This document shows, in pieces, positions 5,734 to 41,615 of a DNA stretch of 64,000 bases (within the stretch, counting starts at the first letter, position 1; every line of letters starts with the position of its first letter). The DNA lies in contig JACMZG010001913.1 of NCBI GenBank assembly GCA_018340805.1, forward strand, positions 29,422,400 through 29,486,399, given 5' to 3'. The DNA comes from Microvelia longipes. Taxonomy: Eukaryota > Arthropoda > Insecta > Hemiptera > Veliidae. The position numbers and the translations under genes were made by a program. The notes under the pieces are model-generated. The model was given only the letters and a program-made list of their open reading frames with translations, was not told the DNA's origin and did not search any database.

Positions 5734-6186
5734 ATGTTTCGCGTAGCAGTTAATTGTTTAGCGACAAGTGCTAGGAATACTCTGACAGCGCGTGTTTTAC
5801 CCTGCAAGGTAAGGCAGTACTCTAGCGCAGTCGTCGAATCCGACGATGCTTTCGACGCGAGGTACGTTCAATTTTTTAGTAAACCAAACATCGACGGATG
5901 GGAAATCCGCAAAGCCATCAACGATTTAGCCGGTATGGACCTTGTTCCGGATCCTAAGATCGTTAACGCCGCTTTAAAAGCATGCAGGAAAGTAAATGAT
6001 TATGCTCTTTGCGTCAGGCTCCTAGAAACCATTAGATTCAAATCTGGCGGTGATACTGATATTTATAAGTATGTTATGCAAGAAATCAAACCCACCATGG
6101 ACGAGCTTGGTATCGACACTCTGGAAGCCATGGGATACGACAAACCTGAGCTAGCCCTCGCCTCAGTCTACGATATCCACGGTTAA
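5734..6186 (+). CDS. COX5A: Cytochrome c oxidase subunit 5A, mitochondrial precursor
   Basis: A single open frame of 150 codons, the usual length of the COX5A precursor. Residues 1-30 are a typical mitochondrial targeting peptide: rich in R, S, T and A, with no acidic residue until the mature part. The mature domain shows the family's strongly conserved blocks, ARYVQFF, IDGWEIRKAINDLAGMDLVP, ALKACRKVNDYALCVR, DELGIDT and the ending YDKPELALASVYDIH. COX5A is a nuclear-encoded structural subunit of respiratory complex IV on the matrix side of the inner membrane. I chose the ATG at 5734 (context AAAATG); an upstream in-frame TTG at 5725 is not a plausible start. There is no intron in the coding part, but the frame is intact, so it is probably the working gene; a young retrocopy is possible. 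Because the 5' exons of the transporter that follows on the same strand were not found between 6.2 and 10.6 kb, COX5A may sit inside that gene's first intron. Confidence 0.95.
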   Translation: MFRVAVNCLATSARNTLTARVLPCKVRQYSSAVVESDDAFDARYVQFFSKPNIDGWEIRKAINDLAGMDLVPDPKIVNAALKACRKVNDYALCVRLLETIRFKSGGDTDIYKYVMQEIKPTMDELGIDTLEAMGYDKPELALASVYDIHG

Positions 6187-10662: not shown

Positions 10663-10791
10663 GTTTATGCTATGCTGAATTTGCTGCTAGAGTACCGAAA
10701 GCTGGATCAGCGTATGTTTACAGCTATGTCACTGTGGGGGAACTTGCTGCTTTCATTATTGGCTGGAATCTCATCCTGGAATATGTCATAG
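10663..10791 (+). CDS. transporter exon (first found; TM2-TM3)
   Basis: Acceptor TTTATAG, donor GTAACA; it starts with two bases of a glycine codon and ends with one. It encodes [20 protein letters not shown], then VTVGEL with the conserved transport-critical glutamate, then [11 protein letters not shown]. Confidence 0.95.
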
Positions 10792-13700: not shown

Positions 13701-16700
13701 ACACAGTGGTCCAACTCCCTGGTTTTAGGTGGTCCTAAATAAATGGGCTCATTGCATTAATTATCGCACCAAGCGCAGTAACATTGTACATTTAAGTATA
13801 AAAAATTTACCTTTAATATATTCAATACAATTTTTAACATTATTAAAAATCCCTCTAAATAAATTTAATCTTGGAAATGAAGAAATAATTATTTTTATAT
13901 ATGCAGGAAAAGGTAAACCGACCTGCCTCTTGTGGAGAACTGTGAACTAAAAAGCAGTCCCATCTAAAACAGCTTATTCGAGGGGAGTTGGACCACTGTG
14001 TACTGTGCCCCCAACCCTACTTTATGAATTTCTACATCCATTTAGACTATAATGATATCTTTATTAAGCAATGACATATTACATATTATTCCAATTCCAA
14101 TTACATTTTGCAAACAACTTAGGTAAATAAAAGGAAACATAAAACATTGAGTAAACTATAGGAAATTTGAGTAATATTTAATGATAATGTATAACAAATA
14201 AAAACATAATGAATTACAAAAAACATTGCATTTACTGCAAGTTGATGGAGCAATTGAAGTACTTAAAAAGTTAAATTATTTTAAGTGAAAGTTAAATAAG
14301 TTTAATTTGCTGAAGTGTACATATATGTTTGTACAGATGTGGCGTAAGTGTGTTAAAGATTGTAAGAAAATTTTTGGGTGCATGTTGGTGATATGTTGTT
14401 TGAGCATACTGTTGGCTTAAGTTTAAAGTCTGGAAACTTTTTGAAACAAACAAACAAAGATGTTTTGAAGAATAATTAATTAATTGAACTGACAAAACTA
14501 AATTTTAACTAATTAATATATTGATAAATTATGAAATTATATGCACATAATTAAACATTTAGTATGTATAGTTGTGTAGCCTAAGGCTCAGATGCTCATG
14601 TACATATTTTTTTTGATCACCAGAAGTTCATCCATCTACAGTTTAGTAGGTATAGATGGATATAGGGTATCCTAGTTTTCACCAGCATGTTTGTTCCTGG
14701 GGGTTCAGAAACAATTATTAGTATTTGAAAAAATTCTAATTTTGTAGAGGGAATCCTAACGTTCAAGCAAGACATTAAGTGAAATCGAGCATATGGTTTA
14801 TCGGGTACATTCGCGATGTCCGACCATCCAGAGGGCTCTGATCATAATGCTCAGGAGTGGAAAGGGGTAGAGGGGATTAAAATCCCCTCCCTCCAACATT
14901 CTGACCAGTCTGGTTTTGCAAACAAGTTTTAACAGTCTTGCTGTTAAACAGATAATCTGTTACCAGTTTATCTGTGCTATATCTTGTTTGTGTATCATAA
15001 AGCCATAGCCTTTTATATTAAAGAGATAACAAAGTTCTCATGAAGAATGTACCTCATTACTCTATGATACATGTTCTAATATTTAAGCTTAATACAAACC
15101 TTATTGTAATTATCAGGATTAGTTATGATTTTATCATTTTAATTTTATATGAACAAATCATGGTTTTTTAATAATACATTTGGAATTCACTAATAATGTG
15201 GCATATTGTATCCAATATGCCATATTGGACAATAGCCATGTGCCTGCAAGGTGAACAACTGTGGCCAATGTGCCCAATCAGGCCAATTTATTATTTAAAT
15301 TGGTTGATTAGTGACCAGAGCCAACTCTTATTGTACTTTATTGTCTGCTGTTCTGTTTTATATTGGACTGCAAAATAACCTGTATGCGTTGACTATTACT
15401 AAAATGTAATCCTTTATTTCTGAAGTGATTTTCTCTTTTTTTTATTTAATATAATTAATAATTATAAATTATTATAATTAATAATTATAAGTTATTATAA
15501 TTATAAATTATTACTATTAATAATTATAAATTATTACTATTAATAATTATAAATTAGTATTATTAATAATTAAAAATTATTATGATTAGAATGGAATGAA
15601 TGCCCATTTTAGGGCATTTCGGCCTGTCAGGGTATTCACCCTGCAGGAACCATCTACTATACTCTAAGAATTATTTAAAGTTGGCGAAATCTTTTTAATA
15701 CAAATACTATTCATAAAATCATAGAGCATAGCCCGGGCTGTGAGCCCCAGACCTCCGTTGCCGAAATCGAACGCCTATACGATCACGTCCTTGAGGCAGA
15801 CTTAATAATTATAATAATAAAAAAATTATAAATAATAATTTATAAAAAATCTACATTATTTAATTATATGTAAAACTATTGTAAATATTTAAAAATAAAA
15901 GATTTATTAAAAATAAATCTATTAATACTGCATTTATGTTCTATTACTTGTTTGTAATGGTTTGTATGATTATATGTATCCAGGTACAGCTAGTGTGGCG
16001 CGGGCATTCAGCAATTATGTAGATACTCTAGTAGACTACAAGATGTCTCATGCTTTAAATGAAACTTTACACATGCATGTCAGTTTCTTATCACCATATC
16101 CTGATTTCTTATCTTTCGGAATAGTAATCTTACTTACTGGTAAATGATTTGTTTATGTAGTTATAATCAATGCCAAACACTCTCCTCTCTAAAATTTAGA
16201 ACTGCTTAGCATAAATTAATCAAACCTGGGATAATTTCCTCAAAAAAACAATTTCATACATTTTTATTAATATTTATTTCTGAAGAAATATAATTTTTAA
16301 TGAATAATACCATCCAAAGCTGCAATATTCAGTTTAAGGCTGTAATAACCTTAGAATTATTAAACAATGACTTAATGTTTTCAAATTGGAATGCTGCTGA
16401 AATATTAATTCAAGAAACTATTTCTCAAAAACATAGCTTGTTTTACCCAAAAAACACACAACCGGCATTATATTTCTATTGAATTTATGTAGTTGCTATG
16501 CAGTAAGTATCATATGGTCATTTCAAGGGTTGCTTAGAATAACATGCTTCATGTTTTTAAATCAGTTGAAATTTAAACCATTATTTGTTTATTTAACATT
16601 CAACAGCCCCTTGAGGCTAGCAATAGTTAATTAGTCACCTATAGTTTTAATATTAGTGACCTAACTGCTTCCTGAAGTGGCCACAGGAATTATTCCTGAT

Positions 16701-19700
16701 ATATCTATTCCTATGTATATCTAAACAAACATTATCATTATTATTGTACTGTTTCAGCACTTCTAGCCTGGGGTGCCCGTGAGTCAGCAGTTATGAATAA
16801 TATATTTACAGCTGTAAACTTACTAACTGTACTCACTGTCATTGTTGCTGGTTGCTTTAAATGTAAGGTTTTACTTATTCTTCCTCACCTACTACCATAG
16901 ATTTATGAACTAGCTTTAAAATCTGAAACCAGATTTCGCAGTGCCTATCTGCTTCCTACCATAGTTGTATAAATTAGCTGTACAAAACTGAAACTAATAA
17001 TTCACAGCGAAAAAAAAAAAATAAGTAATATAAAATGAATATAAACTACAACTAGTCATGAAACGATATTAATCATTTATAATACTTTAGCTAAAAGATA
17101 AAATTATATTTTCGATAATATAAAATAATAAATTAATTAACATTAAAGAAAAAAAGAAAGAAATTTAAATTAAAACAGCTTGTTTGTTAGCCAGAGCTTA
17201 ATTATTTTTTTAAATATATTAAAATATTTCAAATCCTCTATACTTCTGATTTGCTCTGGTAACAAATTGTATAATTTAGGACCAGCAACACTGGCATGTC
17301 TAAGAAGTAGGATAGTGTTGCATGCAATGTTTATAACTTTTTTATTTGACCTAACCCTAATGTACTTATAGTCTGTAAATTTGTTATCAGTTTTAAAGTA
17401 AAATAATTACACTGATTTCTTAAATAATTTAGAAATATTAAAGACAGTTAAGTTTGAAAATAAATCCTTTGTTGGATAAAGCAATTGTTTTCGTAATATG
17501 ATTTTTATTACTGCTTTTTGCACTATTTATAGTTAAGTTAAGTTGGATGGGTAAGCAGAGTCCCAAACAATAGTTCTGAGGTACAGTGTACCAAATTTTT
17601 TGAAGTGCCTTATTTGATGTATTGATAGTGGAGTGGTTTAACTAAACTTTGAAGTTGGTATAAGATTAAGCAGTTTGAACTATTTGAATCATTAGCAGAA
17701 GGAAGATAAGTTATTAGATTATTTCATCTTAAGAACTTGTTTTCCAGTTTTACTTCTGGCTACCTGTTCTGCCCGTTCTTTACTTTCCTGTTATCTGATG
17801 AAATGATCAATTATTGATTTCTATTTTGTTTTACAGTAAATTTCTCATATTGGACGATACCTAAGGAAGATTTACCTCCTGGAGAGGGTGGTGAAGGTGG
17901 ATTTATGCCATTTGGAATAGCTGGTGTTATGGCTGGAGCTGCCAAATGTTTCTTTGGTTTCGTTGGATTTGATTGTGTTGCAACCACAGGTATAGTTGTT
18001 ATAGAAACATAAAAAAATGACTAAAGAACTAAGAGAGGGTTTATGTTCAGAAAAATCACCATTGCTGAAAACAGCATTAGTGTTCTGATTTTTTCCTGAT
18101 CAGCAATATACAGAGCTTCATTTTTTGTATTGGTTGGTTTTCCTTTATTAGATAGTAGTAATTGATAAAAAAAAACATTTCTTGAAAATGTATCAATTTG
18201 ATTGTTTTTATGCAGATTAGTGTTATACAGGGCTGCCACTTTCAATTTTCAGGGATGCATAGCACCTACCCCTCTAAATGGTGGTTAAATTATTGGCAGC
18301 TTTTAAAATTGACATGACTACAATTTTTAAATGTATTTTTAGCCAGATTTATAGTACAATGATCTAATCTTTATTAATTTTAGTGTGTATTGCTGCAAAA
18401 AAATTTGTGGATTTTACTAGAAAAAAGTTCATAAAAATGAAGAGAGGGATGTTGGTCATAGTCTGGGTAATGAGCATAGAGTAATATAGTTAGTAAACTA
18501 ATCAGTGGTAAAGAGATTTAAAAGAAAATTGTCTTACACTTGATAATGTAAACTTTTCTAATTTGTTGGTTTTTTGTTTTAATAAAATCTCTTTACCCAA
18601 ATGATGACTAGTTGAAATTTCGGAAGTTGAATCTCTACTATTTTGGACTGCTGTCTTCATTTGTGTAAACCTTTTTTATCATCACTTTTATTACAGTCTA
18701 ATCAAGATATCTCTTTATCTTATAAATGTTTGCTCTTAGTAAAAAATGCATAATTGTATGTATTGAAATAAAATAAATTAAATTTTTACGCAGTGAGGTA
18801 GAAGCTTCTTTTAGTCTAATTTTACCACTTATGATATTGAGTATATTTGCTGACATTCATAATTTATCCACTAGTATTGGTATATATAAAAAGGGCTTTA
18901 AAATGGATAAGTGAGCAAAAGTAGAAGCAACTAATCATAAGTTTATAACTTATTATAAGTTGTTTTTAATTTTCCTCATTTTTACCATTGTATTGGAAAA
19001 GTTATGTGTTTGTTAGTGGATTTTACACAGCTTTCTATATGTGTGTGTCTGTTATCATAGTAGCTTCCAGTGTCTTAGTGCTAGAGAATTAAAAATTGGT
19101 TTATAAAATCATTAGTAAAAGAGTCAGGTCTAAAAATGTAACTTATTTTGTACTACTTCAAACCAAATTTTGAAGTAAAATCATAGTCTGCTTATCCAGA
19201 GTGGTGCCCTTCATAAGAATGCACTCCCTCTAAATATTAGAAAATCACACATATTCCAGTTTACTTGCAATAAGTGGTTCCCTGTAAAGGAATTTTTTTA
19301 AAGCTGATAAATGTTCCTATAAACGAGCGTTTTTAATCAAATACAGTTAATGTATTTTTACAGGAGAGGAGGCTAAAAACCCTCAGAAAGACATCCCTCT
19401 AGCTATAGTCTTGTCTCTTATCATCATATTCTTGGCTTACTTTGGCATCTCATCTGTTCTCACTCTTATGTGGCCTTACTATAAACAGGTATATTTTAGT
19501 TAATATGATATAATTATATCATGATATTTATTATAGAAGTTAATGATGTTCATTATATGATTATCACAGGCGATATTCATTATATGAATGCGTAAGCTTC
19601 CTTCAAATTTCAAATTCGTCTAGCGGCAACAAATTTAATAATAAATACTTTATTTACATTAAGTTTTACAAACCATAAAACAATAGTAAATTGTCAATAA

Positions 19701-22700
19701 TTTTTCTTATAATACTTTTTATTAGCATGACGTATCGTCATGCTAAGATGTTTAAACATGTGAAACAAAAAGAACAAGAAGAATAAAACACAGGTACAGA
19801 GTACCTTGGAACTTTTTCTCACTCTATCAAAGTCACTGTGCTCTTCCTCAGTACTTTACACGGGTTTGACATTTCCTGAAAATTTGTAAAATGCCTTCTT
19901 TATATTTTAGTACATCTTTAGTCTTGATTTGCCCATTCTCATACAGGCAAATTCAGCACTAACCTGTTTGATTTTGTTCAAAACGAGTGATCCTACAAAA
20001 ACCATGGATAAACTAACCATATAAAAATTATATACAGTATTGACCAATAGTCTCCCCCTCCTTTAAAATTTGAACTATAATACATAATATAATGAAACTT
20101 AGGGTATTTATTCACATAAAGGGAACTTATGGTTTTTTTATTGTGAACTTATTTTTTTTAAGTGCGAGAGTCCTTAAAAAGTGTGGCAGTCCTTTATAAG
20201 TGGGGGAGATGTTTTTTGAGTTTGTAAAAAAAGTAAATTTGAAGTTATAGTTTTAAGGATGAATTCAAGACATTTTGCCACCTGTATATTTTTGTCTAAG
20301 ACCACCAATTAAGGGCACCATAAGTGCCCTAAGTGTAAAAATCGGATATTTCATCTCAAAATTGACACTAATGTTTGGACATTAGAAATAATTTTTCAAA
20401 ATTAAAATGCTTTATTTGTCTCTTAAATCACAAATCATTCATTAAATTTTCTATTTAAAGAAATGAAGGGTTACTATTTACCTAAATCTAGCAGTATTAG
20501 TGACTACAAATACCTCAACATGAGGGTAAGGTTTTGAATTATTAGTTTCATTAATTTATGTCTAATGGTTTAAATTTAAGAAGGAGAATTTTGGTCTACC
20601 TTGCATATTAAACTATGTTATATTGTTACAGGATATCAATGCACCTCTGGTATATGTATTCGGCCAGATGGACATGGATATCATTAAAATTATTGTGTCC
20701 GCCGGTGCCATCTTTGCTCTATGCACCAGGTCTATGTATTTAAATTCATTCCTTTGAGTTAAGAGAGAAGGGGGAAGTTAAATCGTCTCAGATAAGATCT
20801 ATTTGCTTAATTATGCTTATTATGGACCTGATTTTGAAGTTTTTAATCCTAAAACTAAAGTTTTTGGGCTGTTTCTGCAATTGTTCCTCCATTTTATGTT
20901 CCTTAATGTTGAAGCAATGATTAGAATTTATAGAAATAATATTGACTATGAATGACATAGAATTGAATTAGATATATTTAAAATTTAGTTAATTTTGAGC
21001 CCTTTTCAGAGAAAGACTTAAATATTTTCCTACATTTGTTAGTTAAGATAGGTTCTATTCAACAGAAGAGTTGGAGTAGTGGTGAGTAATAGTTATTATA
21101 GCATCAAGGGAGTAAAGATACACATTATTCTCCTGAAATTGGTTCCTAAGATGAAAGCCAAAGGAACCAAAATATTTAACTCCTGAGGGAAAAATCAAAT
21201 TTTACTCCCAAGGTGCATACAAGATTATATCTCCAGACGTTAACATCATTTAATTGTAGTTATATTTTTATTTTCATATGTTTTGGAGTATTTTATTATT
21301 CCTAATAACTTATTGGTTTTTGAACCAGTATTTTTTTTGCTTAGGTCCTCCTTATTAATTTTGAAGGTGTTGCCAAAAAAAAATTAAATTGTTCCAAACA
21401 ACTTCTTTTTGCCTGAAACAGATTTTGATCCAGTTAATTTTTTTTTTTTTGGTAGGTTTTTTAATACATCTGGTAGTTTTTACTTTACATCTGGAGGTAA
21501 AATATAATTATTTTGATTAGGTCTATGTCTTCATTAATGCATATACCATAGGCATATACAAATAAGTTTTTACTCAGCTTTAGGCTTCATCGGTACCTCT
21601 ACAAAGTAGTTATTTTTTTAGCTTAAAGCCTTCATTTGTGCCTCCAAAAAACGATTTTACTTTGAATTACACCATCATTAGTTTCTATAAAAGTTAGTTG
21701 TTTTACATGAGATTGCACCATCATCAGTGCTTTTTGTTTTGCTCAGCGTTCGATTATTTGATTAGATTATACTTAGCATTAGGCTATCATTAGTGTCTAT
21801 ACAAAGAAGTTATTTCACTCAGCATTAGGCCTTTATCAGTGCATATAGAAATTAGTAATTTTTTCATCACTAGTGCCTCTAAAAATAAGTAATTTTACAG
21901 AGCACAAAGCCTTTATTCTTTTAATTTTATATTTGATTATTTTATGTGTTTGTTTTTATAGCTTGTTTGGTTGCTCTTTCCCAATGCCCAGAATCCTATA
22001 CGCCATGGCAAATGATGGAATTTTACCTAAATTTTTTGGTAAAATATTTAAACCAACAAAGACTCCTCTCATATCCACTGTTATCTCTGGAATCCTTGCA
22101 GGTTATTTTTTTTATAACTTGCATGATTTTAGAAAAGCATGATTTTTAATAGTTAACTGTAAAACCTTTCTGTAAAATACTCCCACTCTATAATTGTTTT
22201 TTAAATAACATGACAAATAGTAGATTGCTTTTTATTGTGAGGCATGTTTCTTTATTCATGAGGTTTTACTGGTTGGTGGAACTTAACATTACTTTGATGG
22301 AAAAAAGGGGGTAAACTGATTGTGACACTACGCTACTTGATGAAGCCGTCAAATTTCAAAATTAATCAAGGGGTTAACAAAGAGGTGTTGTTTATAGATT
22401 TTCACATTATGAATTGAAATTCTCATATTCTCTAAATTTATCAATTCAATAGATTTTGAAAAAATCATTAATTCTTAAAACGATTTCTCATGATTATTAT
22501 TATTATTTTTTTTTTATATCCAGTTTTATATAACTTTTGGCAAACTGGTTATAAAATATTAAGAAAAGAAAACAAGAAGAAGAAAAAAAAAAACAAATTT
22601 AAAAATCAAATGTGTCAAGGACAAAAACCAAAATTAATAATAACATAATAATCAAGAAGATTGAAAATGCATGTAGTGTTTGAATAAACGAAGCATGCAG

Positions 22701-25700
22701 AAAACATAAATTTCTTTAAAAAAAGAAATATTTTTGTTAAAGAAATAAATTAATAATAATAATAACATTATGAATTGAATTGGACTGATTTTCAGCTCAA
22801 TCTTATCATGTGACCAAAAATAGTTAAAACCTAATTGATTATAGATATTATAAGTCATTGTCATTAAAACAAAGCTTTAAACTTTAGCAGGGGTTGAGTA
22901 AGTTATTATTATTTATAGTTTTTTGACATTCCTAATCGAAAGCAGCTCAATATGGTCATCTAAAATTATTGACAATTGATAGTGTATCCTTTAAAGTAAA
23001 GTTTTTTGTTGACCACCTCACTAATAATGTTATAGGCATTCGTTGTAAGGTCATAAAAAAGGAATAACAAAAAAAAGTACTACAATATTCAACAAAAAAC
23101 TTAAAAATATTACCGAGCAACAATAATGTGGCGGTTTAGGGGCACACCAAGCTGAGCAGTCTGCAAAGAAGTCCATACATTTAAAATTTGCTAATAACTT
23201 GACAAAATGTCACAACAAAAAATTATGCACATCAACCATGTGTGGTGTGTGTGCAAAGCAGACATAGGGAGACCGCTTGGCCGTGAAGTGCACCTGAGGG
23301 GGAGTGCTCCAAAGCAGAAAGGGGCCGAAGGTACCTTATTTGTTGAACTTTGAGGATATTCATTGACTGGTATTTTGTACTGACTCTTGACGTATGGATT
23401 TATCTAGAAACTTGGTTTGGCTGAACAAAAAAAGCCTTAAATGTTATTAAAAAATATCCAAACAAATTTGACTGAAAAGTATCAAAGTCAAAATACCAAA
23501 AAAAAAAACATCTCTTAAAGTGATTTTTTGACAGTGTGCCGAGAAATGCATTAGCTATAGGTTCGTTGACAGACCATTAAAACCATAACCAGTGGATTCA
23601 AAAACACTGGTGTATTCCCAATCCACCAGGAAGCTAAACTCGATTATACAACTCTGCATGCATGTTTTAGTTTGCCTGCTTGTAAAATAAAACACAATTG
23701 TGATTAGATATTCATTATTCGCATGTATTATTTGTATCTCTTGATGGATGATTAGAACATTGAAGTATCAGTGCTTTATTGTAGTTTTTTGCACTAAAAT
23801 ATCAGTGCTTTTAGTAGCTTTTTTGTTTTCTGCACTTAAATATCAGTGCTTTAATGGAGCTTTTTTGTTTTCTGCACTTAAATATCAGTGCTTTAATGTA
23901 ATTTATTTAAACGTGGGTGATACCCCTCTCCTCCTCCACCTAGAGACAAGGCCCAAAAGCACGTTTGACCCATGTTGGATTATATCTTCACTTGGAGTCT
24001 CAAATTTAAGAGGTGAAAAACTAATGCTTTTGTGGGCTTCGGTGTATTAATTTTATTTAATCCTTAGCATTTACTAGTTAAAATGTTTGTTAGAATAATA
24101 TTTAGGATGTTTTATTATTTTTAATATTTGTTAATTAATAATCTTTTAGAATATTGCATGATTTTTATGTTTTTAATTTAAACTTTTAAGTGTGGTTTTG
24201 TTTTAATTTACTTTACAACCCTTAATTTAAGATGATTTTGCACTTGTGTTGTTGGTTGCTAGAGATCAAGCAAGAACTTCTATTTAACCTACCCATCGTC
24301 TTAGTAATAGTGATAATGATAGTAATATGGGGGAGTGGTAGTAACTACCAGGCAAGTAGGCCACGTGGTTGGGCCCTTTTTGCCAGCTCCCCTAAGGTAG
24401 TGTTCTACTTCTTTTAATTTCAAGTGTAGGTATATTTCATCTAACCTTGACAGAAGAGCCGTGAATTTCTATGGTTCCTCTCATGCTTTTTCAAGCAATC
24501 ATGCTTGAAAAAGCATGATGGTTCCTATATGGTCCTATGGTTCCTCCACACACTTTAAACTACAAGGCAGAAACAGTATATAGTATAATAATGAATCTAC
24601 AATGAGGCTCCTAAATTTTGCCTGTACCCAGTTTCATTTAGGGTAAGGGATCTTTAACGAGTACCTGACAACGCACAGGCTCGAGACCACCGGCTTTACG
24701 TCCCTTCTGAAGGACGTGGTACGCAAAATTTTTATTCCTCTCATAAAAATCCTAGAGGCCCGTGCTGGGATTGAACCCATGACTAAGTCCATTCATTCTG
24801 TGTATTGGCCGCGTACCTTAACCACTACACCACAGGTGACTCTTACCCCATCGTCTTACTTTAATAATGATTTTATTTTCTGTCTCGATACCTTGTTGGT
24901 CTAGGATCACAAAAATACACTCTTTGTAGTTTAATTTAATTTTAGTAATTGATGGCATAGTAGTAAAATTTAATAATGAATTAAGTTTTTTGTCAACTAA
25001 TGCTAACGACATTAGTTGCAAGGTCATCTGATAATGTCTCCAGAATTTACTGTTTTGGCAATTCTGCCGACTCGTATCGGTGTCCCAGGCAGAATGCACT
25101 TTAGGGGTCAAAGGTTCTGCCTGGGACACCCATACGATACGAGTCGGCAGAATTGCAGATCCTTGTTCAGGAAGGTATTTACGAAAAATTGAGGCCGGTT
25201 CCAGCCATTACACTTTTTATTAACAAAACACCCCTGGGCTCTTGGTCTAATCCATTTGATGGCTCAATAGTGAAACCTTGTAAGTCAAGTATTTAGTTGG
25301 CTTCGTTACTAATGTCTTAATCATTAGTTGCAAGGTGGATTAATAATGTCACCAGCTTTTGCACTGAAATATAGAAAATGTAGGACATTTTCACTATATT
25401 ATTAGTATATATTCACCACATTAGTGGTAGAAAATTTCACTACATTAGTGGCAGAACATTTTCACTACACTAGTAGTAGGATATTTTCACTACATTAGTA
25501 GTAGGATATTTTTTCTAAATTAGTGGTAGGACATATTTACTACATTAGTGGTAGGATATTTTCACTACATTAGTGGTAGTATATTTTCACTACATTAGTT
25601 GTAGGATATTTTGACTAAATCAGTGGTAGAACATTTTCACTGCATTAGTTGTAGGATATTTTCACGACACTAGTGGTAGGATATTTTCACTACATTAGTG

Positions 25701-27333
25701 GTAGGATATTTTCACTACATTAGTGGTAGGAAATATTCACAACATTAGTGAAAATAAGAAACTAGATAGGAAAGAACTAAAATTAGAAGAGAATTCATCT
25801 TCTTTACTTCTTGATTTATCTCAAGCTGATGAATTTTTAAGTTTGTCTTTAACATTCTAGTTTATTTGATTTTTATGTATTGGTTTTTTGTGGCAGCCTG
25901 ATAGGTAGTTTATTCCCGATGCCTAGAATGCTCTACGCCATGGCATACGATGGCTTGTTATTCAAAAGATTTGCTATTGTCAATAATTTCACAAAGACTG
26001 CCTTACTTGCCACATTCTTCACTGGCGTTATCTCAGGTTTGAAAAACATTTAAAACATATTTTGACTGTGATGTCTGCTTAAAATAAATATAATAAGAAA
26101 GGTCAATATATATGAAAGACTATTCATATATCTTGGTCCTGGGAAAATTGCATTTATTAAGTGATGTTATATTGATTCAATTTCCAGATAAGTAATAAAA
26201 CTTAAAAAAAAACAGTGTTAACTTAGTTTTAATGATTATTTCCTAATTTTACATGTCGTGTAATTTAATGAATTACCAACTTTAAATAATTTAATGCTAA
26301 CTTTAATTATTTCTTTGGCCACAGGGGGTAGCGAAATGACTTGTAAAATAATTCTTTGCCTAAGGTGGATAGGATACCCGCAGAATGACTGAAATGCCTT
26401 AAAACAGAGTATTTAATTATTGTTTTATAATTTATTACATATTTAAGGTAATCTTATTTAATTAAACGTATAACTAAATATATACTTAATATAATAATAT
26501 ATTTATTACACAAATAAAGTATCTCAGCTCTTAGAACCTATGCATGTTATGTGTTATGTAGAAGGGCCGATGTTGACCTTGCAGTGTTTGTAAATAAATA
26601 AATGACCATTTAGAGGCTTTGTAATCCATCTGAGCAATTTTTAGTCAGAGAATTTTTCACACTGCCTTAAAATAGTTGAGTCTTCTGTGTTCAGGACCCT
26701 ATATTTAACTTGTGTATATTGGTGGTAGTTTTTTGTGCTTATTTGCCTAATTTTAATTGCATGTTATGTACTAAAATCCGGAATTAATTCAGTTTGTTCT
26801 TTGTTTAGTAGTAGGTTTTAATTGTTACAGTTAAAAAGAAAACCTATATCATTAAGTTTTACTCCTAAATGTTAATATGGGACAATTTAATTTTTTCAGA
26901 TCTTAAGGAATTGTTTGAAAATTGACCTTATAAATGTACCAAACCCTATTGTTTATGAAATATGTATAATGACATTAACCTAAAATAATGACCCAGCTGA
27001 AATTTCCAAAATGTACTAAATCTCAAGATGTTATTGGATCAAGCTGAAACTTAATACGCATACTCTAGTTTTGTGACCATGATTTTATAAAATTATATTT
27101 TTATGTAAACAAATTACTGTTTTAAACTAGTGCATTTGGAAATTAGCTAAAATTGTAGCAGTATGCCATTTTTAAAGTTCTATTGACTGCTATAGGGCTA
27201 CAACAGTGTGGCTAGGAAATGGCCACAGGAAGGCTTGAGGCCTGAAGCGGTCCCTAGTACCAACATCAGAGGCTAAAGTGGCCAAGGGTCTCTAAATACT
27301 GAGAATCATAACTTTTTATACACAATATTATAT

Positions 27334-27395
<62 letters not shown>

Positions 27396-29850
27396 CACCT
27401 TAGTGTTGTATACAGGTATAATGGCAGCCATATTTGAATTGGAACAGCTTATAGATATGATGTCTATAGGAACTCTGTTGGCTTACACCATCGTAGCTCT
27501 CTGTGTTCTCCTTCTTAGGTTTGTGAATCAGTTATGTTTATTTAAGAAAAAATCTTTGGATCGACAGGTGCTTTTTCAATCAAAGCATGTATCATATATT
27601 TACTTCTACTTAAAATACTCACTTAAGAAAAAATGCATTATGAAGGAGGAGGTTTTAAGGTATTTTAAAGTAAATTTTCTTCGCTAATGAGATTAAAAAT
27701 TGCCAGATGTGTATCTTGGCTTTTCTTGGATTTCAACCCAACTGTTGAATCATCTACTAACTGAAGCACTTTAGGATTATGAGGTAACTTATTTTTCATT
27801 ATTGGCAGATCATTCACAAAATAATGGAAAGTATTGGGCCTAATACAGAACATTGCAGCACTCCGTAGGTTACAATACTCTCATCAGACCACTCTTGACC
27901 TAATTTTACTCTTTGCTTCCTAATAGTAAGGTAAGACTTAAAAAGCTCTAATACAGTGCTCCTAACATTATTATACTCTAGCTTTTTTATCAAAAGATTA
28001 TGTGAAACAAGATCAAAAGCTTCTGATAAGTCAAACAATATGCTTAATAATTCTTCTTTGTTTTTCCAAGCTTCCTGAATATTATTTCCCATGCTATGAA
28101 GTAGGTCAATAGTAGACATTCCTTCTTTATAACCAAATTTATGTTTATTTAGCAAACTGTTTTTGTTTAAATAGTCAATGATTCTCCTTTTGATAGCCTT
28201 CTCCATTATCTTAGCTTCAATTGGTATCAAAGCAATAGGCCTATGTCTGGCAGTAGTCTTATAACCTCAATAACCTGAGCGATAGCCTCACAACTTGTAT
28301 TTACTTTTTTTTAAATTTTCGAAGAAAATGTGCTAAAAGTAGCATAAGCTGAGCTTCCAATGAGGACAAATAATGATGTGCTGAGTAGTGTCCATTTTCT
28401 TTTTTAAAAAAAACCGAAAAAAATAAATAACAAGTTGTGACTTATTTAATAGAACCACTTTTCTAAAGTCTAATCTTGATGCTACAGGTATAGGAGTGCT
28501 ACAGAAGAATTAGGAGTAGAAACTCCAGACTATTCATTCAAACGGTTCACTGGACAGGTTATCAATGTTGGAAGAGTCAAGAGTCCTAATAAACTCACTA
28601 CTTTGGTTTCTGAACTAGCCACTGCTATTTTCGGTAATATTATTTTTTATCTGTTTTTTTTGCAAATTATCAATTGAAAATTACGATTATACAAAATTAA
28701 TAAATTTTTATTTCTACTCCTTTCATCTAGTGAATAAAATATATAATTCCCTTGAACACATGTTATTGGTTCCTTAGAAACCCTATTACATCCTCTAGGA
28801 TGTATAAAATAAAACAATTTTCTCTCTTAATGCATAAATAATTACTCATTTTGTAGGAAAATATATTTATAATACTTGCAGTATGTCTGCCTCCATGGCC
28901 ATGATCGTATAGGCACTCGATTTCGGCACAGGAGGTCCTGTGTTCGCACCCTGACTGTGCTCTAAGATTATATAAATAGTATTTGTATTTATAAAAAGTA
29001 ATTGTAAAAAGATTTCGCCAACTTTAATTAATTCTTAGAGTATAGTAGACGCAACCCACCCGAGGTGGTTCCCACAGGGCACCACCTCGGCCCATCAGGG
29101 CCGAAAGGCCCTAAAATGGTCATTTTATTTTTTATTTTTATATACTAACAGTGATACCCAAGCTTCGCTCAGCAAATATTTTATTGATTCAACTACAAAT
29201 TATTAATCATTCCTTTGACAACTACGAAAAAATAGAAGATGTGCCCAGCTGTAACAATAAATGGAATTCTTAAATCGTGCGTTTTGACTTTTAATGAGAA
29301 TACAATAATATTCTCAACAAAATAGCCCATGAATTAAACAATTCAATTACACCTATTATTTTAGAACACAGAAAGGTATTATTTGAGATATATAAATATT
29401 ATTTTTTACACTAATCTCCTATTGTTTGTAAAGGAATTTCGTTAAAACTTATAATGTGGTTAATGAGACCTATGAGGCCTTTAAGTGTTGTGTTTAGTCA
29501 AGATGTATCAATTAGATTCCAATTTGTAAGCACTTAAAATTTAGTGTTGCATTAAACCCATATTATTTTCGAATGGGTCTCTATAAGACTTAAAAGGTCA
29601 CACAGACCAATAAGAATTCTAAGTTTAAAGTTTAGCAGAAAAAGAAGTTTAAAGTTTATTCAAGATCTATCAATTAGCTTCTGAGCTGTAAGCACTCAAA
29701 AAAAGAATTTTTACACTTATGCCCTATACTGTTATTTTAGCACTGATCAAGATCTGACATTGTTTATGACTCCTTCTAATATATAATTAGCGTAAGTTTA
29801 TACTTTGGTCTAGATCCTTTTCGAGTTATAAGCAACCAAAAGTTTCCACT

Positions 29851-29907
<57 letters not shown>

Positions 29908-32900
29908 ATTATATAAATTATCATATTTCTTGACATAATACAAATACCTGAAAGGTTGTAATTATTATTTATCATGCATATTCTTTAATTAGCTGTGTTG
30001 TATAAAGTGATTTAATGTGATGTCCCCGTTTGTAGAATGTATTATAAATATTTGCTCCAATAGGGGTTGTAGAGGGGGAGGGTCTCTAGTCTCCATCTAG
30101 GAAGGCTCTTATAGAAATTGTCACTCTACCAGCCCTCTTATCACTGTGCTATTCAACCCTTGTCCTTTTAGGTCATTAAGGACAACCCTTGCATATCCAT
30201 GCAAGGGTTTGCCAAATAGATAAAGAATGTGATAAATTATATTTTCAAAGGAAGAAAAGACATGTTGATAGCTACTTTCCCAAAATGTTTTAATGTTAAA
30301 CAACTAACTTTTTCACTAAGTGCCGAAAGGACGATTAGAACTCATTTGTTATCCCATGGAAGTTTTCTGCATTCTTAAAAAGCTTTTATTGATGAAAGCC
30401 ATAGAATATAGCTTGTTTACATGAAGAACTTATTAAATAATATTTTTTTTTATATATTTCATTTGTAAGAAATTATCTTTTAATATTCATATTACTATTG
30501 CTTCCCTAACCCCTAAAAGTTTATGAAATAAGCATAAAACCTTTGTGCCATGCCCGGCAGATTTGTTATTAAATTGCTTATTATTATTTCAAATTATTTT
30601 GTTACAGTCTTGTTCACGATAGCTAGTACATTTATACTGGTGTTCTTCGAGAATGATCTGTCTGAAGGGTCAGTGTGGGTCATAGTTCTGTTCAGTCTTT
30701 CTATGCTGTGCACTGTTCTACCTACGCTTATCATTTCTTTACAACCTCAAGATGACCCTACTCTCTTCTTCAAGGTAAATAAATCCCTGTGTTGTCAAAG
30801 TTATGCCAATTATTTTAATTATTAATTATGATTCTGCCAGTGCTGTAACAATAAAACCTTGTTTCTTTAATTTTTATTTGACCTTGGAAAATCAAGTTTC
30901 AACTCAACTTTGTGAAAACCACTTGATGTATTAAAAACATCTAAAACAGATAATTCAGGTGATATCCCGGTTTTGGAATTTTTTGCCAACACATTACTTT
31001 GCTTTCATATCTATTGTATAAATGAGGGAAAGTAATGAATGGTCAGCTGTTTATTCTTTTTTTCTTTTCCTCATTTATACTATTAGTATTTAAGAAAAAT
31101 AATTAGTTTGCACTAAAGATCTAGTTCTATTAAAGACCAAGAATTCAGGCGTTTTTAAGACATTCTTGTAGTTTTAAACAAGTGTGTATCTTTTATCATC
31201 GTAGCTCCCTTAGAATAATACTATATATAGAAGGAGCACTACTGATAACACGAAAGGGGGTTCACTGGGGGTCTTAAGTTATGCTGTCACCCTAACAATA
31301 TACAATTTTCTTTTAAAAAAGTTGGCAATACTTCCGGTTGCTGAATTACTATGTTCTATTATTAATTAATGATTGATTATTCATAAAATACTAATATAAA
31401 TATCGGTGCATTACTAAATTTTAAGCATTTTAAATTGTAGTTTAACGTTTTTAATTAAAATTATATTAATAGTAGTCCTCGCCGACTGAATGTAGATTCT
31501 TGTATTGCGCTATCCTTTTTTCATCTAAGACCAGTTTTAGTAAATACTCTGCAGGTGTTTTAAGTTATTATATTTGTTCTTTATCATCTTTCTTCATTAA
31601 TGGATATTTATGACCCATATTTAAAATAATATTTTGTTGTTAGGGTAGTACTCTACTTGTGACCACCAGTCAACCGGCTTTCGTGTTATCAGTAGAATTA
31701 CATTGTGTTTACGATCATATGCTCCTTCTATATCAGTATTATTACAAGGTAGCTCCTATTGTGTTTATCACAGAGAGTTAAAACTTGATAAAAAAAATAG
31801 TTTTTAGGTCTAGTTGTGCTATCCAGAAAACATGTTTCATGCTCTCATTATCCCTAATTATTGACTCAGCAAAAATTAAAAAAAAGTAGTTTTCATTTTA
31901 ATAAAATAGGAAATAAACTATCGGCTTAAAGTTCTGTAGGAAAACAAAAAACTTTAAGCTGATAGTTTATTTCCTATTTTATTAAAATTTGGGAGTTCTA
32001 TACAATTAAAAGTGCTACTAAAGAGAAATTACATAGTTTTCATGATATAAATTTGCTAACATGCAAAAAACTCTTTGAATTAATTTAAAATTTAGTACAC
32101 ATGTAGTCATATATAGGTCCCAACAAATGTGCCAAGTTTCATCTCATCAGCATTAGATTCATATTTATTGAATGAAATGTACATGTTTTTTAATTATTAA
32201 AAATCAAAACACCATCTAATTGAGTTGTAATTAAAAACAATCTAAAACAAAATTTTATGTCAATGTGGCTAGTATATATACAGTTTTTGTTGGATCACTG
32301 GTTGTGTTAAAGCTGAATTTTGCTTGGTGTGTACGAGGTAGAGAAACATCCTAAGCCTCTTGGCTCAAAGAGGTTTTAAAAAGTTTGATTCCTAGTCACA
32401 TAAAGGAAAATATAAGTTTTGTGTTGCATTTTATCAGCAAAATAATTATTTCTTGTTACAAAATGGTAGTACTGACTCAATGGTGGATGATTTTGGGGGT
32501 GCTCTATACTACCCAGGCTTAATCTCACTATTAATACTTTCTTGTACAAAATACTCAAAGTCGCAGTGCATAAGGTTCTACACCTACCCTCACAATTAAT
32601 AAACTTAATACTTTTATAACAAATACTATGATGAAAGCTGAGTCCGTGGTAGAGGTTGTTAAACCATTAGTATTCTTACCTTTGACACCACGGAGCTCTG
32701 GGATTCCCATCCCAGGTTTCGTTCTCAGTTTATATAGGATAATTGTTCAAATAAATTGTTGCCAATTTTAGATAACTCTTTGAATCTTATAGTTGCTACT
32801 AACACCAGAAGGTGGTTCCCGTAGGACTTGTTTCTGTAAGGCTCACTGAAAATGTCTCTATGTTAACAGGTGCCAGGATTACCATTTCTACCTTGTGCTA

Positions 32901-33678
32901 GTATATTTATGAATGTTTATTTGATGATGAAATTAGATATACAGACGTGGATCAGGTTTGCTGTGTGGCTTGCTATAGGTAACACTTTCTATATTTGTTT
33001 GCTCAGTTTTATTCATAGGTGTGTGCACAGCAAGTGCCTTGGCAACCATACAAATTTTTCAGGGCTAATTTAATTTAGCATTACTATGGTATATCAAGTA
33101 GTTTTAGGCACACAGATTACAGAGAATCTCTGGGCTCTGATTGCTTCCAACCAATAATTTGTGTGGCAACACAATGCTACCAACCGTGTCAAAAAATAAT
33201 TGCCCTATTTTAGGTGATTTCAAAGAGGTATTACTGTTACAAGGCATCACCTTCTTTTGAATGAAGTTACTCAATACTAATGATTTTACAAACTATTAAA
33301 GGATTTAAAAAAAAAACTTCACTTAACTTTTAGGGTTCTATGAATAATAATTCATAGAACTCCTTTTTCTCCTATTTCTCCTTAATATAATTAATAAATA
33401 CTATAATAATTAAATATAATTAATAATTTAAAAAAGAGGTCCAAAAAGTTTTTTCTATCCATGAATGTATTTTACAGAAATTAAAAAACACCATCATGGT
33501 TTTGTAATTCCCCACTTATTTTATGCATTATTTATTTTAAAATACATTGGCTTACAAGTCTATTTGGTCTAATCTAATTCTCTGAAATGTTCCAGGTGCT
33601 GTGATCTACATATTTTACAGTATTGGCCACAGTGTAGAGGGTGAGAAGAAAAGAAAACAACTCTCTAATACAAAATAA
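10663..33678 (+). CDS. Cationic amino acid transporter (SLC7A/CAT family, slimfast-like), 5' partial, two splice forms
   Basis: Plasma-membrane uptake carrier for arginine, lysine and ornithine. Exons: 10663-10791, 15984-16139, 16758-16862, 17837-17989, 19364-19488, 20632-20729, then either 21962-22101 or 25897-26036, then 27416-27518, 28488-28633, 30608-30774, 32870-32978, 33596-33678. All junctions are GT-AG and all phases agree. The joined frame gives 504 residues plus stop. Full-length CATs have about 75 residues more at the N-terminus, so the first exon or exons (TM1-2) are missing from the window. Family landmarks in order: [20 protein letters not shown]; the glutamate in VTVGEL that is essential in mouse CAT-1; [60 protein letters not shown]; and VYLMMKLD near the end. 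About twelve hydrophobic segments are predictable. The loops before TM9-10 and after TM10 are short compared with mammals. Substrate choice is inferred from the family. Confidence 0.93.
11467..11905. repeat. degenerate GACTTGA / TCAAGTC short-period repeat
   Basis: About 440 bases made mostly of irregularly spaced AATCGACTTGA-type words and their reverse complements, many of them TCGA- or TTGATTC-centred small palindromes. It lies in the transporter intron after 10791. An open frame of 91 codons runs through part of it but is a by-product of the repeat. Confidence 0.7.
11906..12970. other. intronic, no recognised feature
   Basis: AT-rich transporter intron sequence. No exon, RNA gene or clear repeat is seen. 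Confidence 0.4.
12971..13261 (+). mobile_element. jockey-like reverse-transcriptase C-terminal fragment
   Basis: One uninterrupted frame reads [16 protein letters not shown], then [14 protein letters not shown], then [19 protein letters not shown], and ends PEIF at a stop. This is the end of the RT/post-RT region of jockey-clade LINEs (TYG-xxxWG, N-xxLQ, H-x-DL-x-P pattern). It is noticeably richer in G+C than its surroundings and still open, which suggests a fairly recent 5'-truncated insertion. It lies inside a transporter intron in sense orientation. Confidence 0.8.
13664..14038. mobile_element. MITE with about 55-bp terminal inverted repeats
   Basis: The left end (13664 on: GATGTAGAAATTCACACAGT) and the reverse complement of the right end (GATGTAGAAATTCATAAAGT) stay alignable for about 55 bases, including CACAGTGGTCCAACTCCC in both. 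The total is about 375 bp with no transposase. The superfamily is not identified. Confidence 0.8.
14039..15436. other. intronic, no recognised gene
   Basis: Transporter intron. It holds small hairpins (GAGGGGATT/AATCCCCTC at about 14872-14891; a GGCATATTG/CAATATGCC pair at about 15202-15223) but no exon-like segment. Confidence 0.4.
15437..15590. repeat. AT-rich TTATAAATTATTA tandem repeat
   Basis: Repeated ATTAATAATTATAAATTATT words, period roughly 20-25 bp, directly before a tRNA-derived SINE. Confidence 0.75.
15595..15801 (-). mobile_element. tRNA-derived SINE, copy A
   Basis: On the minus strand it starts GTCTGCCTCAAGGACGTGAT, with a tRNA-Leu/Ser-like A box region and a decayed B box (GGGGCTCACAGCCC). 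The tail body GTTGGCGAAATC... and GGTTCCTGCAGGG follows. The same body is at 28881-29126 (plus) and, with another head, at 32637-32868. Confidence 0.7.
15984..16139 (+). CDS. transporter exon 2 of window
   Basis: Acceptor TATCCAG, donor GTAAAT, phase 1 to 1. It encodes [19 protein letters not shown] and a hydrophobic segment [12 protein letters not shown]. An NET glycosylation sequon lies in the presumed extracellular part. Confidence 0.95.
16758..16862 (+). CDS. transporter exon 3 of window
   Basis: Acceptor GTTTCAG, donor GTAAGG, phase 1 to 1. It encodes [20 protein letters not shown] and a membrane segment [14 protein letters not shown]. Confidence 0.95.
17165..17420 (-). mobile_element. 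LINE 3'-end fossil (antisense in transporter intron)
   Basis: The minus-strand translation contains [20 protein letters not shown], then [20 protein letters not shown], then a short basic tail. This is the usual final segment of insect LINE ORF2 proteins ([10 protein letters not shown] pattern). No longer part of the element is recognisable upstream. Confidence 0.6.
17837..17989 (+). CDS. transporter exon 4 of window
   Basis: Acceptor TTTTACAG, donor GTATAG, phase 1 to 1. It encodes a short loop rich in G and E and then [20 protein letters not shown] and [11 protein letters not shown], one of the most conserved CAT segments. Confidence 0.95.
18590..18690 (-). repeat. dispersed repeat (GAAGACAGCAGTCCAAAA family)
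   Basis: On the minus strand it carries GAAGACAGCAGTCCAAAATA, shared with 48235-48320 (plus) and 56690-56780 (plus). The plus copies continue to a TCCTGGTC-ATCAGG segment. Confidence 0.55.
19150..19285. repeat. dispersed repeat shared with window end
   Basis: CATAGTCTGC-TATCCAGAGTGG, then AGAAAATC-CAC, then CTTGCAATAAGTGGTTCCC recur in the same order and spacing at 63880-64000, where the copy is cut by the window edge. Confidence 0.75.
19364..19488 (+). CDS. transporter exon 5 of window
   Basis: Acceptor TTTTTACAG, donor GTATAT, phase 1 to 0. It encodes [19 protein letters not shown], then a membrane segment ending [10 protein letters not shown]. Confidence 0.95.
19790..19870 (-). repeat. 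fragment of the 5S-associated repeat body
   Basis: GTACAGAGTACCTTGGAACT and a following CTCTTCCTCAGTA match the body of the repeat at 59240-59460. No 5S-like part is attached. Confidence 0.5.
20632..20729 (+). CDS. transporter exon 6 of window
   Basis: Acceptor TTGTTACAG, donor GTCTAT, phase 0 to 2. It encodes [19 protein letters not shown] and [10 protein letters not shown]. It is the common exon spliced to either of the two alternative exons that follow. Confidence 0.95.
21962..22101 (+). CDS. transporter alternative exon A (mutually exclusive)
   Basis: Acceptor TTTTTATAG, donor GTTATT, 140 nt, phase 2 to 1. It encodes [19 protein letters not shown], then [16 protein letters not shown] and [12 protein letters not shown]. 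It is the same length and phase as exon B (25897-26036), with 23 of 46 residues identical. Both cannot be included, and neither can be skipped, without shifting the frame. The segment corresponds to the intracellular loop and following helix that differ between CAT-2A and CAT-2B in vertebrates. Confidence 0.93.
22102..23750. other. intron between alternative exons, first part
   Basis: AT-rich with A-rich runs at about 22560-22600. A segment at about 22980-23060 is shared, diverged, with 24990-25040 and 25290-25350 (TTGCAAGGT...AATAATGTC words). No exon is seen. Confidence 0.45.
23755..23910. repeat. 42-bp tandem repeat
   Basis: Three to four copies of a unit containing CTGCACTTAAATATCAGTGC. 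The best two are exactly 42 bp apart. Since 42 is a multiple of three, one frame stays open across the copies; that frame is not a gene. Confidence 0.85.
24481..24518. repeat. perfect 17-bp hairpin, 4-base loop
   Basis: The arm TCATGCTTTTTCAAGCA and its exact complement are separated by ATCA. It lies between the two alternative transporter exons, beside a SINE. Confidence 0.85.
24595..24842 (-). mobile_element. tRNA-derived SINE with clear A and B boxes
   Basis: On the minus strand GTGGTGTAGTGGTTAAGG (complement of 24817-24834) is a good pol III A box, and GGGTTCAATCCC (complement of 24767-24778) is a near-consensus B box, at tRNA-like spacing. A non-tRNA body follows with GGACGTAAAGCCGGTGGTC. 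No complete cloverleaf is present, so this is a SINE head and not a tRNA gene. Confidence 0.75.
25058..25156. repeat. long inverted repeat, arms 37 and 42 bp
   Basis: The left arm (25058-25094) starts GCAATTCTGCCGACTCGTAT and ends GTCCCAGGCAGAA. The right arm (25115-25156) is its complement except for a 5-base insertion. The loop is 20 bases. It lies between the two mutually exclusive exons of the transporter. Confidence 0.85.
25372..25755. repeat. 25-bp minisatellite, about 15 copies
   Basis: The unit is ACTACATTAGTGGTAGGATA plus TTTTC, with few changes between copies. It ends about 140 bases before the acceptor of alternative exon B. Confidence 0.92.
25897..26036 (+). CDS. transporter alternative exon B (mutually exclusive)
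   Basis: Acceptor TTGTGGCAG, donor GTTTGA, 140 nt, phase 2 to 1. It encodes [19 protein letters not shown], then [16 protein letters not shown] and [12 protein letters not shown]. It is closer than exon A to the general CAT consensus in its first half ([15 protein letters not shown]). At the position that separates vertebrate CAT-2A from CAT-2B just before DGLLF, exon A has N and exon B has Y. Confidence 0.93.
26037..27327. other. intronic, no recognised feature
   Basis: AT-rich transporter intron. A short GC-richer patch at 27190-27300 (GGCCACAGGAAGGCTTGAGG) weakly resembles 16600-16700 and may be a repeat fragment. Confidence 0.4.
27328..27393. repeat. (TA)n tract just before a transporter exon
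   Basis: About 65 bases of nearly pure TA ending 22 bases before the acceptor of the exon at 27416. Confidence 0.95.
27416..27518 (+). CDS. transporter exon 8 of window
   Basis: Acceptor TATACAG, donor GTTTGT, phase 1 to 2. It encodes [20 protein letters not shown] and [14 protein letters not shown], the conserved helix after the alternative segment. It accepts either exon A or exon B in phase. Confidence 0.95.
27665..28230 (-). mobile_element. LINE reverse-transcriptase fossil, antisense in transporter intron
   Basis: Two overlapping frames together cover the RT palm and fingers: [18 protein letters not shown], then [19 protein letters not shown], then [20 protein letters not shown], then [13 protein letters not shown], and after a frameshift YFVNDLP and [12 protein letters not shown]. 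The usual F/Y-A-D-D catalytic box is LVDD here. The frameshift and changed box show a dead copy of a jockey/CR1-like element. Confidence 0.88.
28488..28633 (+). CDS. transporter exon 9 of window
   Basis: Acceptor GCTACAG, donor GTAATA, phase 2 to 1. It encodes the cytoplasmic loop [19 protein letters not shown] and the segment leading into the next helix, [14 protein letters not shown]. Confidence 0.93.
28881..29126 (+). mobile_element. tRNA-derived SINE, copy B
   Basis: The head GTCTGCCTCCATGGCCATGA...GTATAGGC is tRNA-Leu/Ser-like and a B box TGTGTTCGCACCC follows. The body runs through TTTCGCCAACTTTAATTAAT to GAGGTGGTTCCCACAGGG and a GGGCCGAAAGGCCC palindrome. It is the same family as copy A. 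Confidence 0.78.
29855..29900. repeat. (TA)n microsatellite
   Basis: Nearly pure TA in the transporter intron after 28633. The rest of this intron (29130-30607) shows no exon or recognised element. Confidence 0.95.
30608..30774 (+). CDS. transporter exon 10 of window
   Basis: Acceptor TTGTTACAG, donor GTAAAT, phase 1 to 0. It encodes [20 protein letters not shown], two hydrophobic helices and the loop [13 protein letters not shown]. Confidence 0.94.
31217..31740. mobile_element. MITE/foldback element, about 520 bp
   Basis: The left end (AATACTATATATAGAAGGAG, then CTACTGATAACACGAAAG) is repeated inverted at the right end (AATACTGATATAGAAGGAGC, then CTACTGATAACACGAAAG). The right copy has about 28 extra bases between the two blocks. 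The interior has no transposase. Confidence 0.75.
31741..32420. repeat. composite dispersed repeat with a 5S-like block
   Basis: Parallel to 51600-52060 through several blocks (AGTTAAAACTTGATA, GGTCTAGTTGTGCT, AAATGTGCCAAGTTTCAT, GGCTAGTATATATACAG, TTTTTGTTGGATCACT). After the last block a decayed 5S-like part follows (GTTAAAGCTGAATTTTGCTT). The hairpin at 31895-31988 is inserted in it and is absent from the other copy. Confidence 0.6.
31895..31988. repeat. 39-bp hairpin, possible small-RNA precursor
   Basis: The left arm 31895-31933 and right arm 31950-31988 pair over all 39 positions. The one DNA mismatch becomes a G-U pair in RNA. The loop is 16 bases. It lies in the transporter intron, sense strand. 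The pairing is more perfect than in most animal pre-miRNAs, so a recent inverted duplication or a hairpin siRNA source fits as well. Confidence 0.8.
32637..32868 (+). mobile_element. SINE with the same tail as copies A and B but another head
   Basis: The head has GTCCGTGGTAGAGGTTGTTA and a B-box-like GGGATTCCCATCCC. The tail GCCAATTTTAGATAACTCTT to GGTGGTTCCCGTAGGA is homologous to the tail at 28881-29126. It runs up to the splice acceptor of the exon at 32870. Confidence 0.6.
32870..32978 (+). CDS. transporter exon 11 of window
   Basis: Acceptor TGTTAACAG, donor GTAACA, phase 0 to 1. It encodes [20 protein letters not shown] and [17 protein letters not shown], a signature near the C-terminus of CATs. 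Confidence 0.95.
33596..33678 (+). CDS. transporter last exon with stop
   Basis: Acceptor TGTTCCAG, phase 1. It encodes [19 protein letters not shown] and a short lysine-rich tail ending TAA at 33676-33678. The C-terminal tail is much shorter than in mammalian CATs. I saw no AATAAA in the next kilobase. Confidence 0.94.
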
Positions 33679-40926: not shown

Positions 40927-41615
40927 ATGTGGTTTACTGGTAAAAACGATCTGGCTAATTTTAAAGACGCGTTATTTTCCCAGTTAATGAGCGAAGTTAA
41001 ATCTGCCGCGCCCGGGGCAAGATTGACTTACGGCTTGAGGACTCATCTTGAGAAATTTAGACCTTCAGAACGACAAGAGATAGCGTGTCGTATGAGAGAG
41101 GGATGTGCTCCTTTGTTTATAGCATGTAAACGAGGGCACGTAGAGATAGTTGAGTATTTGATAACTGTCTGTAGAGCTGATATAGAACAGAGAGGTCTTT
41201 ACGAAGTTCCTGACGATCGCTCTGTTCATAATGTTACGCCACTATGGTGTGCTGCCGTTTCAGGTAAACTAGCTGTTATGAAATGTTTAGTGAACTGGGG
41301 AGCCAACGTGAACGCCGTATCAGATACGGGTTCTACCCCTGTGCGGTCCGCGTGCTTCATGACCCACCTAGATATCGTTTCGTACTTAATAGAGTGTGGA
41401 GCAGACATTCTCAGACCTAACTATAACGGAGGTACTTGTCTAATTAATTCAGTACAGAGTGTTCAACTTTGCTTATATTTATTAGAACATGGTGCTAAAG
41501 TAAATGCTAAGGATATACAGAATAAAACAGCGCTACATTATGCAATACAGGAACATAGATTTGAAACTACTAAACTATTATTAGAACATGGAGCTGACCC
41601 GTATAACAAAAGCAG
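40927..41615 (+). CDS. FEM1: FEM1 exon 1
   Basis: ATG start, donor GTTTGT, ends in phase 2. It encodes residues 1-229 plus part of 230, including a leader of about 58 residues and five ankyrin repeats (APLFIACKRGHVEIVEYLI, TPLWCAAVSGKLAVMKCLV and so on). Confidence 0.93.

Follow-up and report, generated by a model that had tools for sequence, protein, structure and literature searches.

A slimfast-like cationic amino acid transporter gene of Microvelia longipes with two putatively mutually exclusive exons at the segment swapped in vertebrate CAT-2

The slimfast-like cationic amino acid transporter (CAT) gene of Microvelia longipes carries two homologous exons of 140 nt that are probably spliced one at a time, which would give rise to two carriers likely differing in affinity or selectivity. 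The gene lies in a 64,000-nt stretch of genomic DNA at positions 29422400-29486399 of contig JACMZG010001913.1, the whole of which is called the window here, and the two exons are 8A (21962-22101, plus strand), encoding Cys347, Asn360, Pro365 and Phe372 in mouse CAT1 numbering, and 8B (25897-26036, plus strand), encoding Ser347, Tyr360, Phe365 and Asn372. A preliminary description of this DNA had placed both exons at these coordinates with acceptors, donors and equal entry and exit phases, had counted 23 identities between their 46 residues apiece, and had set the flanking junctions at 20729 (exon 7) and 27416 (exon 9), all of which proved correct, the acceptors being AG and the donors GT. It had also assigned the pair to the segment in which CAT-2A and CAT-2B, the isoforms of vertebrate SLC7A2, differ, and vertebrate and hemipteran isoform pairs do swap the same stretch. 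Provided that both forms are in use, a single 46-residue module would be exchanged by splicing in the same type of carrier in vertebrates and in true bugs, a natural experiment that could show which part of a CAT determines its affinity and selectivity.

By its sequence, the gene on the plus strand of the window is an SLC7 cationic amino acid transporter of the SLC7A1-3 type. The predicted protein matches the Pfam families AA_permease_2 (PF13520, 2.6e-40) and the CAT C-terminal domain (PF13906, 1e-16), both above the cut-off, has Ser and Met where CAT1 has the substrate-site residues Ser343 and Met405 (roles according to PMC13022406), and is predicted to transport cationic amino acids. Relatives were drawn from a protein database clustered at 90% identity, in which isoforms can be hidden by clustering; the search returned 6962 matches, and among the best 120, which were listed, Rhodnius prolixus shares 67% and Ranatra chinensis 66% identity with the window protein. 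Diploptera P0001 attained the top score at only 55% identity because its gene model contains more than one copy, and the Drosophila melanogaster relative among the listed matches is slif (slimfast; P0023, 57%). In a gene tree built from the protein minus exon 8, the window falls in a starred clade together with eight rows, namely Ranatra, a member of Heteroptera, Rhodnius, two Cimex forms, Nesidiocoris, Lygus, Halyomorpha and P0006; Rhodnius, Cimex, Nesidiocoris, Lygus and Halyomorpha are true bugs, and this placement makes the host very likely a true bug too.

Exons 2 to 13 were modelled from splice sites and homology, using tblastn with the relatives as queries. Both lines of evidence place exons 2 (10663-10791), 3 (15984-16139), 4 (16758-16862), 5 (17837-17989), 6 (19364-19488), 11 (30608-30774) and 12 (32870-32978), all on the plus strand. 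Exon 7 (20632-20729) and exon 9 (27416-27518, from splice sites) flank the pair on the same strand and are constitutive in the model. Further downstream on this strand, the homology of exon 10 (28488-28633) is weak, with frame and splice sites in agreement, and exon 13 (33596-33678), which includes the stop codon, follows from tblastn and the reading frame. Exon 1, encoding TM1-2, was found upstream, outside the window, which makes intron 1 27,175 nt long. Both isoforms are open from exon 1 to the stop over about 580 residues, with the start codon and the 5' boundary of exon 1 placed approximately.

The reading frame predicts that each transcript should contain exactly one of the two exons. 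As the preliminary description had stated, the inclusion of both or of neither breaks the frame; each way a premature stop follows, and either single-exon form is open. In the model of exons 2 to 13, each single-exon form ends at the same stop; the first stop is met at residue 304 with 8A and 8B together and at residue 263 with neither, which puts it 663 nt and 506 nt, respectively, ahead of the last junction. Stops at such positions would trigger nonsense-mediated decay, by which transcripts with both or neither exon would presumably be removed. The junction itself accommodates either choice, since exon 7 leaves AG and both 8A and 8B start with C, completing a Ser codon (AG|C) either way. The plus strand of the window holds 176 stretches of 140 nt between an AG and a GT, and 10 of them are open in the phase of exon 8; therefore, exon length and openness by themselves are no proof. 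The locus has the anatomy of mutually exclusive tandem exons, in which adjacent homologous exons share their phase and the frame is lost when both are included or both skipped. Both exons would be expected to serve in this species.

Swapping of the same segment is visible in predicted isoforms of other Hemiptera, each with one of the two exon forms. Annotated isoforms X2 and X3 of Cimex lectularius, and likewise X1 and X2 of Homalodisca vitripennis, lie on one contig each and are identical except for exactly the exon-8 segment. Pairs of related proteins follow the same pattern: P0006 and Halyomorpha P0007, both stink-bug-like, are 95% identical over the 327 residues before the segment and 94% over the 208 residues after it, with 20/46 identities inside; Nesidiocoris and Lygus share 82% before, 82% after and 22/46 inside; and Nilaparvata and Laodelphax share 74% and 63% on the two flanks and 23/46 inside. 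The contig of P0006, at 1970 nt, is cDNA-sized, and its source, 'lgn', presumably consists of RNA assemblies.

The distribution of exon types was compared between two trees, with the labels A and B assigned by the analyst from exon sequence. On the gene tree, built by a quick method from the protein without exon 8 (34 rows, 18 of them labelled), exon type changes 7 times, and shuffled labels required as few changes or fewer in 415 of 500 trials for A and in 430 of 500 for B; the 16 unlabelled rows include the window, which has both types, the aphids, Planococcus, P0017 and two leafhopper paralogues. The exon tree has 48 rows, of which 18 carry a label; here the five A rows need 1 change and the eight B rows 2, counts that none of 500 shuffles reached, with the 30 unlabelled rows, some of them placed between labelled ones, left uncounted. 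Since the type is scattered on the gene tree and grouped on the exon tree, it follows the exon and not the gene copy; and since the 7 changes are no better than those of shuffled labels, the segment is swapped within one gene. Leafhoppers additionally have a second CAT gene copy (P0062, P0072) on the gene tree.

Heteroptera have both exon types, as do leafhoppers and planthoppers, so that the duplication seems to have preceded the split between these groups. However, the A rows of Auchenorrhyncha have no Pro365 and resemble the single exon of other insects, which leaves the age of the pair unsure. The B group has a weak support of 81/84 on the exon tree, with Cimex X2 outside it. Two individual rows are also of interest. 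P0017 joins an ordinary auchenorrhynchan backbone to an exon-8 segment that has diverged strongly (its end branch on the exon tree is 1.39), perhaps a third exon type in Auchenorrhyncha. P0011 (Cimex X3) has an 8A segment with two residues fewer in the same loop in which vertebrate CAT-2A has one fewer, a possible parallel to CAT-2A.

The preliminary description knew of no account of the swap in insects, and no description was met in the openly accessible literature searched; predicted isoforms of Cimex and Homalodisca with the swapped segment are already in public databases. A term search of the accessible text of PMC5740500 and of insect papers did not find the exon-8 swap described. Slimfast of D. 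melanogaster and Aedes aegypti resembles the window gene as an insect CAT with a TOR-linked nutrient role, and differs from it in having one segment type; for AaSlif, no alternatively spliced variant is reported by its authors. Neighbouring homologous exons of which one is used for the other have been surveyed as tandem duplicated exon substitutions, often invented independently in vertebrates and arthropods according to the sections available (PMC9741552). The accessible main text of that survey has neither SLC7A2 nor any amino acid transporter among its events, and a hemipteran event would escape it because its gene sets are those of human, D. melanogaster and C. elegans. For a fruit-fly CAT2, isoforms of greater and lesser length with a sex bias are reported in PMC11215311; going by the available part, they are apparently a different event from the exon-8 swap.

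The likeness to the vertebrate pair is considerable. CAT-2A and CAT-2B belong to the same transporter subfamily, are two homologous forms of one gene differing in the same segment, and have the 3' end of the swap at the same residue as the window pair; the vertebrate 5' border is not readable from the proteins, whose first four to five segment residues are identical. The residues inside the segment tell a different story. The preliminary description had noted that the residue preceding DG is Asn in 8A and Tyr in 8B, which is right and is one among the 23 differences, and had equated its position with that of the residue that helps set affinity in vertebrates. An affinity difference of the vertebrate kind is not supported on this basis, as neither exon has the vertebrate signature. 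As given in the consulted part of PMC4486710, residue 369 is Glu in hCAT-1, -2B and -3 and Arg in hCAT-2A, and Asn381 is present in the first three and missing from hCAT-2A; by contrast, the window exons have Asn (8A) and Tyr (8B) at 369 and Phe (8A) and Asn (8B) at 381. Further, CAT-2A has 45 residues and CAT-2B 46, whereas both window exons have 46, and position 347 is Ser in human 2A and 2B alike and Cys or Ser in the window pair; four listed mammalian 2B forms have Cys there.

It is unlikely, though more probable than the other alternatives, that the pair goes back to the very duplication that produced CAT-2A and CAT-2B, which would then be ancestral to bilaterians, with one exon lost in most insects. 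The shared segment and the shared 3' end of the swap speak for such an ancestry, and approximately unbiased (AU) tests on the 46 columns did not reject a clade of 8A and 2A (p 0.361), nor one in which 2B and CAT1 are joined by 8B (p 0.408) or by 8A (p 0.406). A weak branch joining 8B to 2A already exists: on a trimmed exon tree, which left out P0017, the two leafhopper paralogues, Cimex X2, Graphocephala and P0026, the B rows form a branch only if vertebrate 2A rows are included in it (48/82). Against it, the vertebrate marks at 369 and 381 are absent from both exons, and forcing all vertebrate rows together on the trimmed tree costs only 0.45 log-likelihood over the 46 columns. Moreover, the other insects among the 120 listed matches show one conserved segment type, so that many losses would be required, and an independent origin is likelier for the same reason; clustering at 90% may hide isoforms, which weakens this argument. 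The AU tests on 46 columns reject neither shared ancestry nor independent invention. The reading preferred here is that the exon duplication arose on the line to Hemiptera, separately from that of vertebrate SLC7A2.

That one of the two exons is decaying or unused, so that a single isoform matters, is improbable. The donors of 8A (GTTATT) and 8B (GTTTGA) are both poor at +3, which would fit such decay, and the donors of exons 7 and 9 are likewise poor. On the other side, both exons are open and score alike against their relatives: a profile of 46 columns from 46 relatives, with the window left out, was scanned against 2844 six-frame fragments of the window and gave E = 4.9e-23 for 8B and 1.6e-22 for 8A. 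Each exon also has relatives of its own type in other bugs. Between 8A and 8B, codons differ at the first position in 20/46 cases, at the second in 7/46 and at the third in 24/46, and the low count at second compared with third positions is a pattern expected if protein constraint held on both. Under the preferred reading of one exon picked per transcript, the choice may even be aided by the poor donors. Looking across the gene post hoc, the donors of the neighbouring exons 7, 8A, 8B and 9 are without a purine at +3 and the other eight donors have one.

No third exon-8 copy was detected in the window by the 46-column profile, the next-best fragment scoring 0.23. With exon 8B as query against the species' own 664.6-Mb assembly, six places scored among the best candidates listed; these are 8A, 8B and four places fitting other CAT-family genes, with a match of just 25 residues at one of the four, and the window gene alone holds two exon-8 places. 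A protein search with 8B restricted to the region found 45 candidates sharing words, none of which scored. That the two segments stem from two tandem gene copies is barely credible: CAT paralogues do exist, as the four further genome places and leafhopper P0062 and P0072 attest, but tblastn with five relatives finds every other CAT exon once in the window, the Cimex and Homalodisca pairs are each on one contig and identical outside the segment, and exon type does not track the gene tree.

By alignment to mouse CAT1, from which the numbering was taken and checked at Leu398 and Met405, the 3' end of exon 7 lies inside the codon of the Ser equivalent to Ser343, and the swapped segment begins directly after this residue of TM8, includes position 347 and continues through TM8c into the next loop and helix. 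In the available text of PMC13022406, the side chain of Ser343 bonds the substrate carboxyl, Ser347 is among the groups (backbone or side chain) coordinating the side-chain amine of lysine or ornithine and is reported essential for arginine-dependent stabilisation, and TM8c is described, with reference to CAT1/CAT2 chimeras, as critical to the affinity for arginine. A triple change in SLC7A4 including L336S raised arginine affinity, according to the part consulted of PMC13194723; by offset, L336S would correspond to position 347.

At this pocket position, 8A has Cys and 8B has Ser. The four heteropteran A exons, including that of the window, have Cys, Cys, Ala and Cys, and of the six heteropteran B exons five have Ser, Ser, Thr, Thr and Ser and that of Cimex X2 has Cys; aphids have Thr. 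Among the 118 of 120 listed matches giving a segment (P0113 and P0117 yielded none, and P0012 is without most of it), position 347 is Ala in 93, Ser or Thr in 18, Cys in 6 and Gly in 1. Position 365, readable in 117 listed matches, is Phe in 97, Tyr in 15 and Pro in 3; these three, P0004, P0007 and P0011, are heteropteran A exons, and with window 8A they are the sole holders of Pro365 among the proteins compared. Residues 347 and 365 were chosen post hoc and serve as leads rather than tests.

The 8B carrier would be the more CAT1-like form, the direction being a guess, and the 8A carrier could be altered in affinity, in its preference for cationic over neutral side chains, or in the inward gate. 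Tentatively, and with less confidence than in the exon swap itself, it is possible that Hemiptera independently evolved a splice switch that alters the pocket at the substrate-site Ser of TM8, toggling between a cationic-specialised and a broader carrier. If so, 8B would contribute a polar, CAT1-like Ser or Thr at 347, and 8A would place a small nonpolar residue or Cys there, as does the one exon 8 of most insects listed, with the 8A of true bugs adding a helix-bending Pro in TM8c; the two isoforms might then share out the dual affinity shown by one mosquito Slif protein. In flies and mosquitoes, TOR nutrient signalling receives input from Slimfast, and Hemiptera feed on blood, sap or prey; an exon 8 switch, if true, would therefore act directly on nutrient sensing.

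The introns around the pair were also surveyed for features of splicing control. An Rfam scan of the window gave no matches. Inverted repeats between exons 7 and 9 (25 listed of 66 pairs) are mostly A/T-rich or imperfect, apart from a near-perfect local foldback at 25058-25156 (arms 25058-25094 and 25115-25156), which lies in the intron separating 8A from 8B and may be a small mobile element; a docking-selector pairing is not proposed from these repeats. At 25380-25750, a 25-nt unit is repeated about 15 times in an array that ends 147 nt before exon 8B, and its core motif occurs nowhere else in the window. A role of the array as a splicing silencer was considered, with no supporting evidence.

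Other sequences lie within or beside the gene. Intron 9 holds an antisense reverse-transcriptase fragment (27817-28266, minus strand; RVT_1, 3.5e-14). Downstream of the CAT gene, an ankyrin-repeat exon (40924-41682, plus strand; Ank_2, 6.1e-31) belongs to a gene that, we presume, resembles FEM1. Inside intron 1, an intact intronless reading frame of 150 residues (5734-6186, plus strand) is COX5A-like (Pfam COX5A, 1.4e-42) and is possibly a nested retrocopy.
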